Part shown: piece by piece, positions 49,096 through 55,359 of the stretch
How the letters are laid out: each line of letters opens with the position of its first letter
Position numbering within the stretch: the stretch's first letter is position 1
Assembly: GCA_016212475.1 (NCBI GenBank)
Contig: JACRGC010000009.1
Coordinates: 62,001 to 126,000 of the forward strand
DNA: 64,000 nucleotides
Reading direction: 5' to 3'
Source: Microcaldota archaeon
GTDB taxonomy: Archaea > Micrarchaeota > Micrarchaeia > Norongarragalinales > SBBD01
Made by a program: the position numbers and the translations under genes
Notes under the pieces: generated by a model
The model's input: only the letters and a program-made list of their open reading frames with translations
Databases searched by the model: none
What the model was told of the DNA's origin: nothing

Positions 49096-49233
49096 TTGAT
49101 TTCCAAACCCTTAATGCTAATTTCATTTGAAGCAACTTCTGCTCTAAAACTTCCAAAACTTTGCTTCAGCACTTTCCATCATTATCCCTGATTCCTACCC
49201 CTTCCTCTAAACCTTCCTTTGGCAGCCTTGCAC

Positions 49234-50445
49234 CTAAATCCTTCCCTTAATGTGCACCGAGGGTAATTTGTGTGCAGAAGCATTGAAATCAATCTGAAAG
49301 CCATGCTCTCCCGATTCTTTTATCAGAACAACAATATTGTGGCATAGCACTTTTGCCAAAGCTTCGTTTGTCTGCGCTACCTCCTTTCTTGAGAACAGCC
49401 TGTTTTGGAACTTGCGCTTGAGCATTGAAAAGGTGCTCTCAACGTTTGATCTGCGATGATAGATCTGCATGAATTTCTCCCTATCGTATTGGAAATAGTG
49501 ATACATCGTCCTCCAAGCTTGGCTTCCAAATTTCTTACCTATTGCGTTTGATTTGAAGGGAATGAAGGGTACGATTCCCAAATCCCAAGCAGTCTGCATG
49601 TTTTTCCTTGCAGCATATCCTTTGTCGGCGCAAACAACTGTTGGTTTGAAACCTTCGGCGGTCTCCTCAATTAATTGGCAGAATTCGGGCGAATCTGCGG
49701 AATGACCATCCGTTACGATAATCGAGGTTACGATGTTGGTTTTTGTTCCGCAACAAACGTGAACTTTCAGCCAATCTTTTACTTTTACGTCCTTGTTGAA
49801 GCGGTAATCCACCCAACGGGAATAGAATGCAGATGAAAGGCCAGATGCATCAATTGCCACGGTTTCTTCAAAGCCCGAGAGCGGCATTGCTGAAATTCGG
49901 ATCAAATCTTTGAGAATTGTGATTAACTCGGGCTTGTTTAGGTATTTGATGATCGTGTTGAAATGCGGAGTTTTGGAAAGGTAACCTCTGCGCTTGGCGA
50001 TTTCAAGGTCGCTAATCGATCGTCTTGAACTTAGGCACTCGTAAACTTTGGCAACGATGGCAAACGCCATTTCAGGCAGAGGCATTGTCGGCCTTCCTGC
50101 CCGTCTTTTCCTTTCATCGGGAATAAGCGAGGTCAGATCCTCCAGCAATTCCAAAAACATGAGCTTCTCTTGCATCTGCGAATTGTTGTAATTACCCCAA
50201 TCCATCTTTTCTGCTTGTGGAAAGAGGGCATTGGATTCAAACAGCTCCTCAACTCGTTCATCTACTGTGATCGGCTTGCGTGGACCTTTGTGAGGATCGA
50301 TTACGACCTGAGAGTTAGCAAGCGTGAATTTGCGACGGCATGATCCACAGAAGTAGGTTTGCACAACTCCTTCCCTAAGGTTCCGCACTCCCCAACGGAG
50401 AATTTTATGCGAATGGCAATACTTACAATCAAAATCCGATTCCAT
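49234..50445 (-). mobile_element. DDE transposase (IS5-like) with N-terminal zinc ribbon
   Basis: 403 residues. N-terminal CxxC...CxxC ribbon (C7, C10, C33, C36) for DNA binding, then a helical segment and a DDE domain: 'TVAIDASGLSS' (first Asp), 'VVCADKGYAARKNM' (second Asp) and 'YHRRSNVESTFSMLKRKF' (Glu). The final residues SAHKLPSVHIKGRI are encoded over two TTxxTGTGCA motifs 20 bases apart. Complete and apparently intact. Terminal inverted repeats were not clear. The upstream 85 bases hold three palindromes and a divergent RHH gene. Family assignment is by motif order only. Confidence 0.88.
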
Positions 50446-50451
50446 AAAGCC

Positions 50452-50523
50452 CACATATACACTTATGCACATATGTGTAAACAATAATATTTATAAACAC
50501 ATATGTGCTAATACACAAATGTG
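50452..50523. promoter_or_regulatory. Array of CACATATGTG palindromes (operators or IS end)
   Basis: Perfect CACATATGTG at 50468-50477 and 50498-50507, and CACAAATGTG at 50514-50523, with a partial copy at 50452. The TATA-like ATATTTATAAA at 50487-50496 lies between them. They sit between the divergent transposase and ribbon-helix-helix genes. Confidence 0.75.
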
Positions 50524-50528
50524 TTAAT

Positions 50529-50666
50529 ATGGGCCGAATCGACATCGTACTATCCGACGACGTAGAAAACAAATTACGCGAAAGATCGGCAAAGAAATTC
50601 GGCCATAGAAAAGGGAGTTTGTCGAAGGCAGTTGAAGAAGCCATTAAAAAATGGTTAGGCGAATAA
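50529..50666 (+). CDS. Ribbon-helix-helix (CopG-like) DNA-binding protein, 45 aa
   Basis: A short gene of 45 codons: MGRIDIVLSDDVENKLRE, then RSAKKFGHRKGSLSKAVEEA and IKKWLGE. Strand 'RIDIVLS' followed by two helices is the RHH fold; 'GHRKGSLSKAVEEAI' is the CopG/antitoxin-type second helix. The ATG is 6 bases after the last of three palindromes, so autorepression of itself and the divergent transposase is a natural guess. It is not accompanied by an obvious toxin gene. Confidence 0.8.
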   Translation: MGRIDIVLSDDVENKLRERSAKKFGHRKGSLSKAVEEAIKKWLGE

Positions 50667-50855
50667 TACTCATACTTACTTTTTTCATACGAAAATCGGA
50701 AATGGTTTGCAAAGATCACCTTGCTTCCCAAGGTGAGGCAACGGGAATTCGGAGCTCTTACCAGCCACCTAAAAACCGTTGACCCTTGCGAATGAATCGC
50801 ACGAGAAGCATATCTATATGGGTGTTCGGTTTAATAAGGTTTTTGCTAAACTGTT

Positions 50856-50887
50856 CTAAACCAATAATACGGTATATTGCGGTTTAG
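50856..50887. promoter_or_regulatory. Inverted repeat CTAAACC...GGTTTAG upstream of the ParB-like gene
   Basis: 7-base arms at 50856-50862 and 50881-50887 with an 18-base spacer, just upstream of the TATA-like TTTTTATAAT (50892-50901) and the ATG at 50923; further TTTAA/CTAAAC half-sites occur near 50829 and 50846. A likely operator for the ParB-like/methyltransferase operon. In the gap 50667-50855 there is a hairpin CACCTTG-CTTC-CCAAGGTG (near 50725-50745) and nothing else. Confidence 0.5.
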
Positions 50888-50922
50888 ATAACTTTTTATA
50901 ATACCGGGTTCATGATGATAAC

Positions 50923-51912
50923 ATGGATGACGAGAATTTATTGAAAACAATCACGGTGAAGGTTGAATTAGACAAGCTTAAGCTTGATTTGAATAACGCT
51001 CGATTTCAACACTTACCCGAAAAAATCGATGAGACCAAAATGGAAGAACTTATTTGGTCGGAAAAGGATACGCGCCAACTTTATGAACAAATTAGAACCG
51101 CCAAGGGTCTTTATGAACCCCCCGTAATAAATTCAGATAATATCGTTATTGAAGGAAATAGGCGACTTGTTTGTTTAAGAAAATTAAAGGTTAAGTTAAA
51201 ATCCGGCGAAATTACCGACATAGAATCAGATCGTTTCGATCATGTCGAATGTAGACAAATTCCCAAAAATACTCCTAAATTAAATGTCGATTTGTTTTTG
51301 GCATCAATCCATGTGAGGGGAAAGAAACCATGGCCCGCGTACAATAAAGCCAAACGCATTCAAGAATTGCGATTAAACTATGACTACAGTTACGATCGAT
51401 TAGCAAAGACCCTCGGAATGGGAAAAATAACTTTGATCCGAATGGTAAACGCTTATGAGCAAATGGAAAAGTATAGGGAAAAATACGATGATGACAAAGA
51501 TTGGTATAGAAAATATACTCATTTTGATGAATTTTTTAGTAGCAGAGGCTTAAAAGAATTTAGAGGACAACAAAAAAATATTGATAAATTTTCTGCATGG
51601 GTACACGAGGGCAAATTTAGCGATTCAAGACATGTTCGGTCATTATCGCAAATACTTGGAGACGACGATGCATTCAAAGCATTTGAAGAAGAAGATTTTG
51701 ATGCAGCAATAAAATTATTGGAAGAAAAGAATCCGACAATGAAAAGCCGAGAATTCCGTCAAATATCAAAAACAATTAGAATTCTTCATGATTTTTCGAG
51801 GAAAGAGTTGGTGAAAACAGTCAAGGATCAGAATAGATTAAGACTTCTAAAAGAATTACGGGATGAAACAGATTCGCTGATAAAGGACGTCGAAAATATG
51901 AACCCAAAGTAA
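50923..51912 (+). CDS. ParB/Srx-fold domain protein of a DNA modification operon
   Basis: 329 residues. The ParB N-domain core is seen as 'VINSDNIVIEGNRRLVCLRKL' (GNRR box), followed by a helical HTH-like region ('YSYDRLAKTLGMGKITLIRMVN') as in ParB's DNA-binding domain. The C-terminal ~130 residues are helical and charged. No ParA partner is adjacent, and the next gene (60 bases) is a DNA methyltransferase, so it is more likely a nuclease-, switch- or regulator-type ParB relative in this cassette than a segregation protein. Confidence 0.75.
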   Translation: MDDENLLKTITVKVELDKLKLDLNNARFQHLPEKIDETKMEELIWSEKDTRQLYEQIRTAKGLYEPPVINSDNIVIEGNRRLVCLRKLKVKLKSGEITDIESDRFDHVECRQIPKNTPKLNVDLFLASIHVRGKKPWPAYNKAKRIQELRLNYDYSYDRLAKTLGMGKITLIRMVNAYEQMEKYREKYDDDKDWYRKYTHFDEFFSSRGLKEFRGQQKNIDKFSAWVHEGKFSDSRHVRSLSQILGDDDAFKAFEEEDFDAAIKLLEEKNPTMKSREFRQISKTIRILHDFSRKELVKTVKDQNRLRLLKELRDETDSLIKDVENMNPK

Positions 51913-51972
51913 ACTATCGGTTGATAAAAAATAAACCTCACATATTAAAGTTTAAATGTTCACTGTGATGCT

Positions 51973-52986
51973 ATGAGAAATAAAAAATACAGAATTGTTT
52001 CCTTATTTTCAGGATGCGGAGGAATGGATCTTGGATTTGAGGATGAAGGATTCGAAGTTGTATGGGCGAACGATATTTTTAAAGCTGCATGCGACACTTT
52101 TGACCAAAATTTTAAAACCAAAATAGATAGGAGGGATATTGCCGATGTTGATGTAAAGGATATTCCCGATTGTGACGTAGTGGTTGGGGGGTTTCCCTGT
52201 CAAGATTTTTCAATGATATGGAAACGAGGCGGTATCGAAACCGATCGAGGAAACCTCTACAAGCATTTTGTGAGGATTGTTAAAGCTAAATCTCCAAAAG
52301 TATTTGTAGCTGAAAATGTTAAAGGATTGATGAGCGCGAATGAGGGTAAAGCAATTGAAACCATCATTTCCGACTTTACAAACAATGGAGAGGGCTACAA
52401 TATCACAGCAAAAGTTTACAATTTTGCCGAATACGGAGTTCCCCAATTACGACAGCGCGTATTAATTATAGGAATTAGAAAAGACCTCGGAATATTTTTT
52501 ACTCCACCGAAAAAAAGCCATGACGAATCGACCTATGTAACTGCGGGCGAAGCTTTGGATGGAGCCGAAAAAGCCGAATATAACAACGAAAAGCTGAAAA
52601 TTGCCGATAGGACTAAAGAAATCCTAAAAAGAATACCCGAAGGAGGTAATTTTACAAGCATTCCGAAAGACTCCCCATACTACGTAAAAGGGATGATAAG
52701 CCATGTTTACAGGCGTCTTAATAGAAATAAACCATCAACCACATTAATTGCAGGCGGAGGTGGAGGTACTTGGGGATATCACTTTGAAGAACCGAGGCCG
52801 TTAACAAATCGCGAAAGAGCAAGAATTCAATCATTTCCAGATGATTTTGTATTTATTGGCTCGATTGCAGAGGTAAGAAAGCAGATTGGAAATGCCGTTC
52901 CTCCGAAAGGGATAAAGCCTTTTGCAAAGGAAATTAAAAAAATTTTAGATGGTAAAATCAAGGGACAAACTACCTTGCTGATTTGA
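51973..52986 (+). CDS. DNA (cytosine-5-)-methyltransferase
   Basis: Methylates C5 of cytosine in a specific DNA site. Motifs: I FSGCGGMDLG (12-21), IV GGFPCQDFS (catalytic C76 in PCQ), VI ENVKGL (114-119), VIII 'QLRQRVLIIGI', and IX-X 'PRPLTNRERARIQSFPDDF' and 'KQIGNAVPP'. 337 residues, complete, with a short target-recognition region between VIII and IX. The Vsr gene begins directly after the stop codon (52987). Together with the convergent nuclease gene this forms a type II restriction-modification set. Confidence 0.95.
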   Translation: MRNKKYRIVSLFSGCGGMDLGFEDEGFEVVWANDIFKAACDTFDQNFKTKIDRRDIADVDVKDIPDCDVVVGGFPCQDFSMIWKRGGIETDRGNLYKHFVRIVKAKSPKVFVAENVKGLMSANEGKAIETIISDFTNNGEGYNITAKVYNFAEYGVPQLRQRVLIIGIRKDLGIFFTPPKKSHDESTYVTAGEALDGAEKAEYNNEKLKIADRTKEILKRIPEGGNFTSIPKDSPYYVKGMISHVYRRLNRNKPSTTLIAGGGGGTWGYHFEEPRPLTNRERARIQSFPDDFVFIGSIAEVRKQIGNAVPPKGIKPFAKEIKKILDGKIKGQTTLLI

Positions 52987-53418
52987 ATGGCGGACCAATT
53001 TACCAAACTGGAAAGAAGTCGGATTATGTTGCGGATAAAATCAACAAACTCTGCCCCAGAATTAAAGATTCGTAAAAAGCTTAAGAAAAACGGAGTTAAC
53101 TATTCTTTAAAATCGACCTTGCCGGGTCGCCCGGACTTGATTATCCCCGATGTAAAGCTGGCTATTTTTGTCGATGGTTGTTTCTGGCACAAGTGCCCTC
53201 GTTGTTATCGCCCACCAAAAAGTAATAAGAAATACTGGAATCCAAAAATTAACAGTAACGCTATAAGGGATAAGCGAGTAACCAGCAAATTAAAGAGGGC
53301 TCGCTGGGCGGTTTTAAGAATATGGGAGCATGAAATCCAAACGAATGTCGACAGATCAATAAAAAGGATTGTCGACAAAATTTCGAAATTAAGAAATCAG
53401 TTGAGAAGAGATCTTTAA
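52987..53418 (+). CDS. vsr: Very-short-patch-repair (Vsr-type) nicking endonuclease
   Basis: Nicks T:G mismatches that arise from deamination of 5-methylcytosine. Signature pieces: 'ERSRIMLRIKSTNSAPELKIRK' with the conserved RSxxM, 'PGRPDLIIPDVKLAIFVDGCFWHKC' (catalytic Asp50 and His-containing GCFWH), 'RCYRPPKSNKKYW' and 'WEHEI'. The cysteines around CPRC fit the structural zinc site. No gap after the methyltransferase, as expected for a repair partner of a 5mC enzyme. Confidence 0.9.
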   Translation: MADQFTKLERSRIMLRIKSTNSAPELKIRKKLKKNGVNYSLKSTLPGRPDLIIPDVKLAIFVDGCFWHKCPRCYRPPKSNKKYWNPKINSNAIRDKRVTSKLKRARWAVLRIWEHEIQTNVDRSIKRIVDKISKLRNQLRRDL

Positions 53419-54288
53419 CTCATCCAATAGGGAATAGAGCTCTTCAGGGTTCCTTTTCAGTTCTGAAGGATGCATAATTATATTTTCTTTATCCCAATCT
53501 TCTCTTCTAACATGGTATTTTCCAGGTAATCGCTTTCCTCTGTGCCCTTTAGCTAAAAATTCTGGTTTCTGTATCCAACCGAGAATTTCAAGCCAGCCAA
53601 TTTTTTGATTAAGTTCTAAATGATCTAAACTAACACCTGCGCGTAAAATTTTCAATAGAAAATCCTCTAAAAGATGAAGTTTAACAAGAATGATTATTTG
53701 ACCTTCCCAGTCCATTTCTAATGTCGGTATAGCCAAGAAGTATCCATTGGTTGATTTTATGGCGATAATCTTGTCTGGAGCAAGTTTGTATTTTTTATCG
53801 TTTTCAAGATAGTGAGTAAAATCGCCCGCATCTCGTTTTGCCTCTTTTTCAGAGATTAAGTGAAAATCGACAGGAAGGCGGTACCCTTTTTTACTTTCAA
53901 CAAAATTAGAAAAGGCAATTTCCACCAATTTGCCTTTAATTTCATCTTCAACTTTGCCGGTAAAATTTCTATCTCCCCGCATTCCGAATTTCCGAGGCCT
54001 CTGCAGAACTTGATCATATTCCCCTATTACGGTTTTGACATCCGAATTAGTCACATGAAAAGATATTTGTTTGAGGCGTTCTAAGTATTCTTCAGCTTCT
54101 TGTTTCGATATAACCCCTTTTCTAAAGCCCTTTACGCGCCTAAAGTATAATTCGGGCGGAATTTCGGGGTTATCACCAAATTTTATTTTATCTCTTCTGA
54201 AGTTAATATTTTTTATTTCAAGTGGATAGCCAGCTTCTGCAACAAATTTTGAAAATTCATCAATTGTTAAGAAATCGGATGCGCCCAT
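53389..54288 (-). CDS. Probable type II restriction endonuclease
   Basis: 299 residues. Not recognised by name. It contains a PD-(D/E)xK-like arrangement: 'RDAGDFTHYLENDKKYKLAP' (Asp) then 'DKIIAIKSTNGYFLAIP' (I-x-K pair after a strand), the order typical for restriction enzymes. It is convergent with, and overlaps by 30 bases, the Vsr gene behind the C5-methyltransferase. The context makes the cognate restriction enzyme the most likely role. The composition (A+T-rich, many AGA/ATA codons) differs from the core genes. Confidence 0.65.
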   Translation of the reverse strand: MGASDFLTIDEFSKFVAEAGYPLEIKNINFRRDKIKFGDNPEIPPELYFRRVKGFRKGVISKQEAEEYLERLKQISFHVTNSDVKTVIGEYDQVLQRPRKFGMRGDRNFTGKVEDEIKGKLVEIAFSNFVESKKGYRLPVDFHLISEKEAKRDAGDFTHYLENDKKYKLAPDKIIAIKSTNGYFLAIPTLEMDWEGQIIILVKLHLLEDFLLKILRAGVSLDHLELNQKIGWLEILGWIQKPEFLAKGHRGKRLPGKYHVRREDWDKENIIMHPSELKRNPEELYSLLDELKISSQLIS

Positions 54289-54327
54289 AGTTAGGTTAGG
54301 ATATAAGTTTAATTTAAACCCACCGAA

Positions 54328-54337
54328 TTTATGTGCA
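54328..54337. repeat. TTTATGTGCA motif, copy 1
   Basis: Isolated exact copy just before the 3' end of the exonuclease-like gene; see the motif cluster at 55240-55287. Confidence 0.6.
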
Positions 54338-54345
54338 GATTCTTC

Positions 54346-54900
54346 TTACTTGATATTACACTCCTGCTTGAACTTTTTCAGGAATCCTGGCATCTCCTTG
54401 TAAAGCCAAGCATTCCATTCGACGAATGCTTTCGCCTCGCTTTCGATGTAATCAACTATCTTGTCATACTCCTTGTTCTTGAACCATTCTGGAATAAGTT
54501 TGCCGTTTGTCGGCTTGTTGGTAATCTTATCAAGCCCCGAACCTTTGAATTCGCCCCTATTCATCAGCAAGGCAAACGCCCTTAGATCAACGAAGGGCCT
54601 CGTAAGTATGTCGATTTCTGGCAAGCCATTTGTTTTGGTGCGCTCTCGCAGAAACTTATGCTCAAAGTTCAAATTGAATCCAGTGGGAATGAATGCCCAT
54701 TCGTTTGAACCAGTTATTTGCGATTCTTCAAGGAACTCCTCCAATATTCTCTTTTCAGATGATTCCCAGGCTTTCAGTATTCGAAGTGGCCCCACAGCTA
54801 AACCCGTATTCCGTTCAAGCTCCTGAAACTGGATTGTGATTATCTGATCCGTCTTTTCTTTCAAACCACTCGTTTCAATGTCAAGGTAATAGTTTCCCAT
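54346..54900 (-). CDS. DnaQ-like 3'-5' exonuclease domain protein
   Basis: 184 residues. The RNase H-like exonuclease start YYLDIETSGL carries the first Asp-x-Glu. The second block 'GFNLNFEHKFLRERT' has Glu where most DEDD enzymes have Asp (GHN..FD), and the third is 'VDYIESEAKAFVEW'. If the Asp-to-Glu change matters, the nuclease may be weakened or altered. Single-domain, no partner polymerase, in the accessory island beside a probable restriction enzyme; a defence or DNA repair function is a guess. Confidence 0.65.
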   Translation of the reverse strand: MGNYYLDIETSGLKEKTDQIITIQFQELERNTGLAVGPLRILKAWESSEKRILEEFLEESQITGSNEWAFIPTGFNLNFEHKFLRERTKTNGLPEIDILTRPFVDLRAFALLMNRGEFKGSGLDKITNKPTNGKLIPEWFKNKEYDKIVDYIESEAKAFVEWNAWLYKEMPGFLKKFKQECNIK

Positions 54901-54949
54901 TAAACCACTCTTTGAATATGCTTTTACTCGTTAATATAGCTCGAGGGTA

Positions 54950-54959
54950 TTTATGTGCA
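54950..54959. repeat. TTTATGTGCA motif, copy 2
   Basis: Exact copy upstream of the exonuclease-like gene; followed by AATTCGGTG, while copy 1 is preceded by ACCGAAT, so this pair brackets the gene. Confidence 0.6.
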
Positions 54960-55012
54960 AATTCGGTGTGATAAAAAGCAAGTTTTAATAGCTTTGAAGT
55001 CGTTATTTTACT

Positions 55013-55201
55013 ATGAAACTGAAAGCGCAAGGATGGCCAGCGGGCGTACTGCCGATAGTATTTTGGATGCTGGTAGAAGGATTATTTGTTTATATTGCAG
55101 TTACTGATCAACAGGGGCAGAGGGGGCTCGGCGCAATAATGTCGGTTGTTTGGATAGGAATAGGCATTGTTGCTGCCTGGATCTTCGGAAGGGGGCACTG
55201 A
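55013..55201 (+). CDS. Small membrane protein, 2 TM, 62 aa
   Basis: Two hydrophobic helices (residues ~11-30 and ~41-58) joined by a short polar loop (TDQQGQRGLG). Begins MKLKAQGWPAGVLPIVFWML. Not recognised. Coding potential is moderate: there is no long ORF in other frames and the hydrophobic pattern is real, but start signals are weak. Confidence 0.55.
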   Translation: MKLKAQGWPAGVLPIVFWMLVEGLFVYIAVTDQQGQRGLGAIMSVVWIGIGIVAAWIFGRGH

Positions 55202-55239
55202 TTCTTTGTTTCGTTCCACCCTAATGCTGTTTTAACCAA

Positions 55240-55287
55240 TTTATGTGCAACCTCCCGACTTCATGTGCAGAAGGCAGTTTATGTGCA
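55240..55287. repeat. Cluster of three TT(T/C)ATGTGCA motifs
   Basis: TTTATGTGCA (55240-55249), TTCATGTGCA (55260-55269) and TTTATGTGCA (55278-55287), 18-20 bases apart. On the minus strand they read FAHKLPSAHEVGRLHIN in one frame, close to the transposase C-terminus SAHKLPSVHIKGRI at 49.2 kb, so this is probably a relic of the 3' end of the same insertion sequence. They also lie just upstream of the lipoprotein promoter. Confidence 0.7.
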
Positions 55288-55359
55288 AAGCCTCCTTTGG
55301 CGCAACCTTTAAATTCCATTTAACCCTAATAGTTCAATACGTTTTAGAGGTGCAGTTTT

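Follow-up and report, generated by a model that had tools for sequence, protein, structure and literature searches.

Positions 49224-55292 (6069 bp) of the window, the whole 64,000-nucleotide stretch of DNA analysed here, very probably form a single cargo-bearing DDE transposon. The proximal terminus AGCCTTGCACCTAAA starts at 49224 and its reverse, TTTATGTGCAAAGCC, ends at 55292; as imperfect terminal inverted repeats, AGCCTTGCACCTAAA and GGCTTTGCACATAAA match at 11 of 14 positions, the left one being diverged, while relatives reach up to 14/14. Both repeats are abutted by a 9-bp direct repeat, TCCTTTGGC, identical at 49215-49223 and 55293-55301, and duplications of the same length bound 24 other elements. 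Within the window, randomly chosen boundary pairs shared a 9-mer in 8 of 846,701 trials. Since the termini match in reverse and identical 9 bp lie outside both, the interval is best read as one transposition unit; joined without it, the flanks would run from CTAAACCTTCCTTTGGC directly into GCAACCTTTAAATTCC. The inverted termini, the end-site arrays, the 9-bp duplication, the terminal transposase, a divergent ribbon-helix-helix (RHH) gene and the DNA-modification cargo can all be seen directly in the window sequence, and the element thus has what is expected of a unit transposon: terminal inverted repeats, a duplication of constant length, its own DDE transposase within the ends, and passenger genes, which would be dispensable for transposition. 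For the window locus, no allele free of the element was found; the closest relatives belong to other genera. The window's own genome contains no near-identical second copy. Another family member of 9243 bp, with the duplication TCTTCAAAG, is present in this genome (L073:150-9392, contig C5); its cargo comprises membrane and HTH proteins and many proteins without assignment, with no clear defence match.

The transposase gene (49234-50472, minus strand) encodes a DDE_Tnp_1 domain (PF01609, E 1.3e-23), of which D208, D283 and E345 are invariant in an alignment of ten relatives, preceded by an N-terminal CxxC..CxxC region that by eye looks zinc-ribbon-like here and SWIM-like in other members. A 45-aa RHH protein (50529-50666, plus strand; RHH_6, E 1.7e-5, slightly below the curated cut-off) is encoded divergently, and the space between the two genes contains three palindromic inverted repeats, GCACATATGTGT, ACACATATGTGC and ACACAAATGTGT (50467-50525), which form a putative operator. 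In several family members a gene for a small DNA-binding protein likewise adjoins the transposase on the opposite strand, with wHTH- or AbrB-like ORFs (labels assigned by eye) in place of the RHH gene. In the mechanism that we propose, the transposase would bind TGCACATAAA sites at both ends, and the ends would be joined to target DNA by cuts staggered by 9 bp, so that everything between them would move as one unit; the RHH protein would probably repress the divergent transposase promoter.

The two ends share a fixed arrangement of sites. The proximal end (49224-49290, plus strand) has one TGCACATAAA-like site at +6 from the tip and, farther in at +24 and +44 (49247 and 49267), inverted sites lying over the 3′ coding end of the transposase gene; the inverted sites lie at +44 and +64 in L064, L066 and L067. 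The distal end (55240-55292, minus strand) has its sites at +44 (55240), +24 (55260) and +6 (55278), and the same +6/+24/+44 array, with no adjoining transposase, also terminates L061, L064 and L066. In the closest relatives (L012-L016), the transposase genes share one pattern at their ends, with TGCACA-like sites 20 bp apart over the stop region and an inverted copy, such as ATTTATGTGCAAAGCC, about 20-50 bp beyond them. Judged by sequence, this fixed geometry resembles that of transposase-binding sites.

The preliminary description of this DNA had started from a cluster of the ten-base motif TTTATGTGCA, and this cluster is real. Four exact copies are located at 54328, 54950, 55240 and 55278, all on the plus strand, and three copies with one mismatch at 49247 (TTAATGTGCA), 49267 (TTTGTGTGCA) and 55260 (TTCATGTGCA); the reported spacings of 20 and 20/18 bases are correct. 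For the pair in the transposase tail, the position and spacing hold, but not the exact match, since 49247 and 49267 carry one mismatch each. The chance expectation for the motif is 0.31 copies per window, and four copies were reached in 0 of 100 shuffles. The genome (1.37 Mb) contains seven exact copies, four of them within this 1-kb stretch, which rules out the even genomic spread that the preliminary description had named as evidence against its proposal. One could regard TTTATGTGCA as a promoter or regulator motif with an incidental mobile-element context, as 40-50 bp separate the sites at 54328 and 54950 from minus-strand start codons downstream of them, and ATGTG half-sites occur in the palindromes of the putative RHH operator. 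However, a motif with so few genomic copies, which occupies fixed positions on transposon tips across genera, the tips themselves coinciding with target duplications, makes this reading extremely improbable; its rejection as the principal explanation rests on the rarity of the motif in the genome and on its tie to the duplications.

As had been reported, the transposase ends in AHKLPSVH, and AHKLPSAH appears in one minus-strand frame of 55225-55290. These alike peptides at two places could suggest that an IS at 49.2-50.5 kb once had a second copy at 55.24 kb, since lost except for a tail relic, and that the island between them is composite. Yet the peptides resemble each other because the TGCACATAAA repeat, read as codons, gives A-H-K, and the tail is accounted for by the last transposase codons doubling as putative binding sites. 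What had been taken for a transposase-tail relic of past insertion and excision (55240-55287) is this transposon's own distal end, in the standard form of the family; moreover, a search of the window's own genome with the transposase gave no match at 55.24 kb, one 9-bp duplication encloses the whole 6 kb, and no bare IS version occurs among the delimited elements. The relic reading is thus highly improbable, and a composite of two IS copies was ruled out by the presence of one transposase and one target duplication around the whole unit. Of the preliminary description, a mobile island of about 6 kb with the defence genes, bracketed by the motifs, is supported; mobilisation as a composite between two IS copies is not. 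The enclosing duplication TCCTTTGGC, which directly adjoins the outermost motif copies on both sides, was absent from that description.

The boundaries of the single transposon were recovered by a search to which no end sequence was supplied. Surroundings of related transposases were taken from Micrarchaeota genomes, named GTDB genomes and IMG/VR, and scanned for all position pairs that combine an inverted repeat of 14 bp with a direct repeat of 9 bp on its outer side. Exact 9-bp duplications were found around 25 elements (that of the window and 24 others) of 2,571-14,788 bp, and both ends of all 25 lie within one base of RGCYTTG. For the window, the best match of this search was 49224/55292, with a score of 11; when the duplication test was displaced by 20-100 bp as a control, the best score was at least 11 in 1 of 370 runs. 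Two further elements were delimited by their ends, namely L061, with an imperfect duplication, and L066, whose contig begins at the first base of the element. Matches at chance level were left out (L152, score 10; L161 and L091, score 9; and one top-ranked match of L089, for which the ends of a 4239-bp pair were adopted). About half of the searched transposase loci yielded no boundaries, owing to decay, to different ends or to the contig stopping short. None of the delimited elements is a bare IS, even though distal ends were accepted as close as 10 bp upstream of the transposase. Among the named hosts are Candidatus Micrarchaeota, Fermentimicrarchaeum, Nanoarchaeota, Pacearchaeota, Aenigmatarchaeota, Thermoplasmata and a Bacillota MAG, of which single outliers could stem from MAG contamination. 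Two complete members, of 3704 and 4226 bp, are on IMG/VR contigs (L204 and L210). In genome G054, contigs C12 (L069) and C33 (L070) break off some 141 bp into the same proximal end with which contig C39 begins, a break pattern typical of multi-copy elements, which suggests more than one copy or alternative junctions.

Absence of a member from a related locus could be followed for L162 (genome G036, 4692 bp). In the congener G174, its two flanks, when joined, align to an uninterrupted stretch (72% identity over 677 aligned positions), and the matched flanks are only about 0.5 kb apart in G175 and about 0.75 kb apart in G176. The 4.7-kb unit is absent from the congeneric genomes at that locus; the exact junction cannot be read in them because of a small gap beside the duplication at such divergence.

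Behind the RHH gene, the window element encodes a ParB-like protein (50923-51912, plus strand), which matches PADLOC PDC-M38A / PD-Lambda-5_A and shares 58% identity with its positional counterpart in L066. It is followed on the plus strand by a C5 cytosine DNA methyltransferase (51973-52986; PF00145, E 5.7e-84), the sole match to this family in the genome, and a Vsr-type endonuclease (52987-53418; PF03852 and TIGR00632 above cut-off). On the minus strand, a 299-aa orphan (53389-54288) has no Pfam, PADLOC or NCBIfam match and lacks homologues both in 301 genomes from the phylum and in IMG/VR, and its AlphaFold model is poor (mean pLDDT 35); its position makes it a candidate restriction endonuclease. 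Of a complete restriction-modification system, the cargo has the methyltransferase; Vsr and this neighbour of no matched family lie beside it, and a named endonuclease is encoded in the relative L066. An RNase_H_2 / DEDDh-type exonuclease (54346-54900, minus strand), with homologues in 13 of 60 genomes including the window's own, and a 62-aa hydrophobic ORF (55013-55201, plus strand) without NCBIfam match complete the cargo. These DNA-modification genes are probably antiviral: the methyltransferase, Vsr and the orphan, which may be a restriction enzyme, would shield the host from foreign DNA, and the same cargo would penalise loss of the element.

Cargo is present in all 27 delimited elements, and 14 of them contain DNA methyltransferases, which belong to several unrelated families. 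A C5 methyltransferase is combined with Vsr and a GHKL ATPase in both L061 and L082. L064 carries an N6 methyltransferase with an AlwI-type region and a specificity subunit; L066 a ParB-like protein, D12 and N4/N6 methyltransferases and an MvaI/BcnI-type endonuclease; and L067 an N4/N6 methyltransferase with a weak Mrr-like region, a D12 methyltransferase, a GHKL ATPase and a SocA/Panacea protein. Further methyltransferases or type IIG enzymes are encoded by L139, L153, L162, L164, L173, L092, L102 and L210, the IMG/VR element L210 having a type II methyltransferase. Beyond DNA modification, L093 encodes an AAA_14/DUF4143 protein matching PADLOC PDC-S01, and L135 and L155 encode HerA-like ATPases. 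As background, C5-methyltransferase matches total only 16 across 98 relatives, and in both the window genome and G001 enzymes of this type are encoded solely inside family elements. On the transposase tree, elements with methyltransferase cargo do not group together, and supported branches force at least seven changes, which indicates repeated gain or loss; the different methyltransferase types in related elements indicate that cargo was exchanged over time.

Two internal end-like sites, TGCACATAAATTCGGT (54328-54337) and TGCACATAAATACCCTC (54950-54959), both on the minus strand, flank the exonuclease gene of the window element, the former directly beyond its stop codon and the latter upstream of it. 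Within the single-transposon reading, and compatible with it, the element may, on the simplest account of these sites, have grown by serial capture, 54328 being a relic of an older distal end and the newer outer end at 55292 having later enclosed the exonuclease; we put this forward tentatively, as somewhat short of an even chance. Both sites match end units and are oriented as the distal end is, and the first 16 bases of the site at 54328 equal a unit of the L067 distal end. Furthermore, a distal-type end is located directly at the 3′ end of the exonuclease gene in G042, with an N6-methyltransferase ORF alongside, and element ends lie about 0.4 kb (G024) and about 1.5 kb (G001) from exonuclease homologues. 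On the other hand, 54328 and 54950 are lone sites without a terminal repeat or duplication and could be regulatory, and the numbers are small. In four genomes (the window's and those with L214, L216 and L218), a DEDDh-type exonuclease or homologue lies inside an element or within 1.5 kb of its end, as if this locale were a preferred neighbourhood or the gene had been captured repeatedly.

The Tn7 target duplication is 5 bp long, whereas the family described here has a single DDE_Tnp_1 transposase and a 9-bp duplication. Tns-type models gave no match among the window cargo proteins, where TnsA/TnsB/TnsC machinery was thus not found, and a Tn7-like identity was rejected because the transposase differs (DDE_Tnp_1). 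End-site arrays at both ends and large, variable cargo are common to this family and Tn7-like elements (PMC8649781), in whose cargo restriction-modification is the commonest defence type (PMC8649781); the same survey found no Tn7-like transposase in archaea (PMC8649781). Among known transposases, the best-scoring model is NCBIfam NF033579 transpos_IS5_2 (111.5 bits, E 5e-32), and the DDE_Tnp_1 catalytic domain is shared with the IS5 family. Membership in IS5 by NCBIfam is not reached, as the curated cut-off is 140 bits, although this is nonetheless the nearest profile; unlike IS5, these transposases have an extra N-terminal region, and the elements span 2.6-14.8 kb with cargo. Passenger-gene IS (tIS) are an established concept (PMC9330008), and one transposase, terminal inverted repeats, a target duplication and internal passenger genes are common to tIS, unit transposons (PMC9330008) and the present elements. 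The differences from tIS (PMC9330008) are that here every delimited member has cargo, often DNA methyltransferases, with no bare IS form found, that the transposase is IS5-like, and that the hosts are mainly DPANN archaea. The linkage of restriction-modification genes to IS copies was already known (PMC3031569); such genes travel with a transposase in both cases, but in those units they are located between two IS copies, whereas here there is one unit with one transposase. In Thaumarchaeota, the IS-like transposons recorded by a survey of mobile elements had one or two genes (PMC6563490).

No publication describing this transposon family was found in the open-licence literature, and it looks like a new, apparently undescribed IS5-like family that is centred on DPANN archaea and often carries restriction-modification genes. 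We suggest, as a conjecture with slightly less in its favour than against it, that this family, whose range extends to Thermoplasmata, bacteria and viral-collection contigs, specialises in carrying restriction-modification and other defence genes, repeatedly swaps cargo and grows by acquiring new distal ends beyond old ones, and that the many unassigned genes in its cargo are candidates for new defence systems. In carrying such genes, the family looks comparable to the Tn7-like elements of bacteria with their defence cargo. Little is understood of how DPANN archaea, with their small and reduced genomes, acquire and lose antiviral systems. The ends are precisely delimited, so that each gene between them is cargo and the unassigned ones become ranked defence-system candidates, and RGCYTTG ends, a 9-bp duplication and TGCACATAAA sites 18 and 20 bp apart provide a simple search key.

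Some of the cargo proteins are of separate interest. Three elements (L075:8751-9431, L093:9001-9681 and L154:2093-2797) each encode a protein of some 230 aa, and the N-termini of the three are similar; the L093 copy has no Pfam match and the L154 copy no PADLOC match, and the gene is a candidate accessory gene of the family. The proteins at L097:7813-8697 and L173:4930-5676, from two distant elements, have similar-looking N-termini and are possibly a shared unusual cargo; that of L097 matches proteasome beta (PF00227). In a Pacearchaeota element, L089:6864-8129 encodes an apparent fusion of a DarT toxin and a DarG-like macrodomain in one protein.
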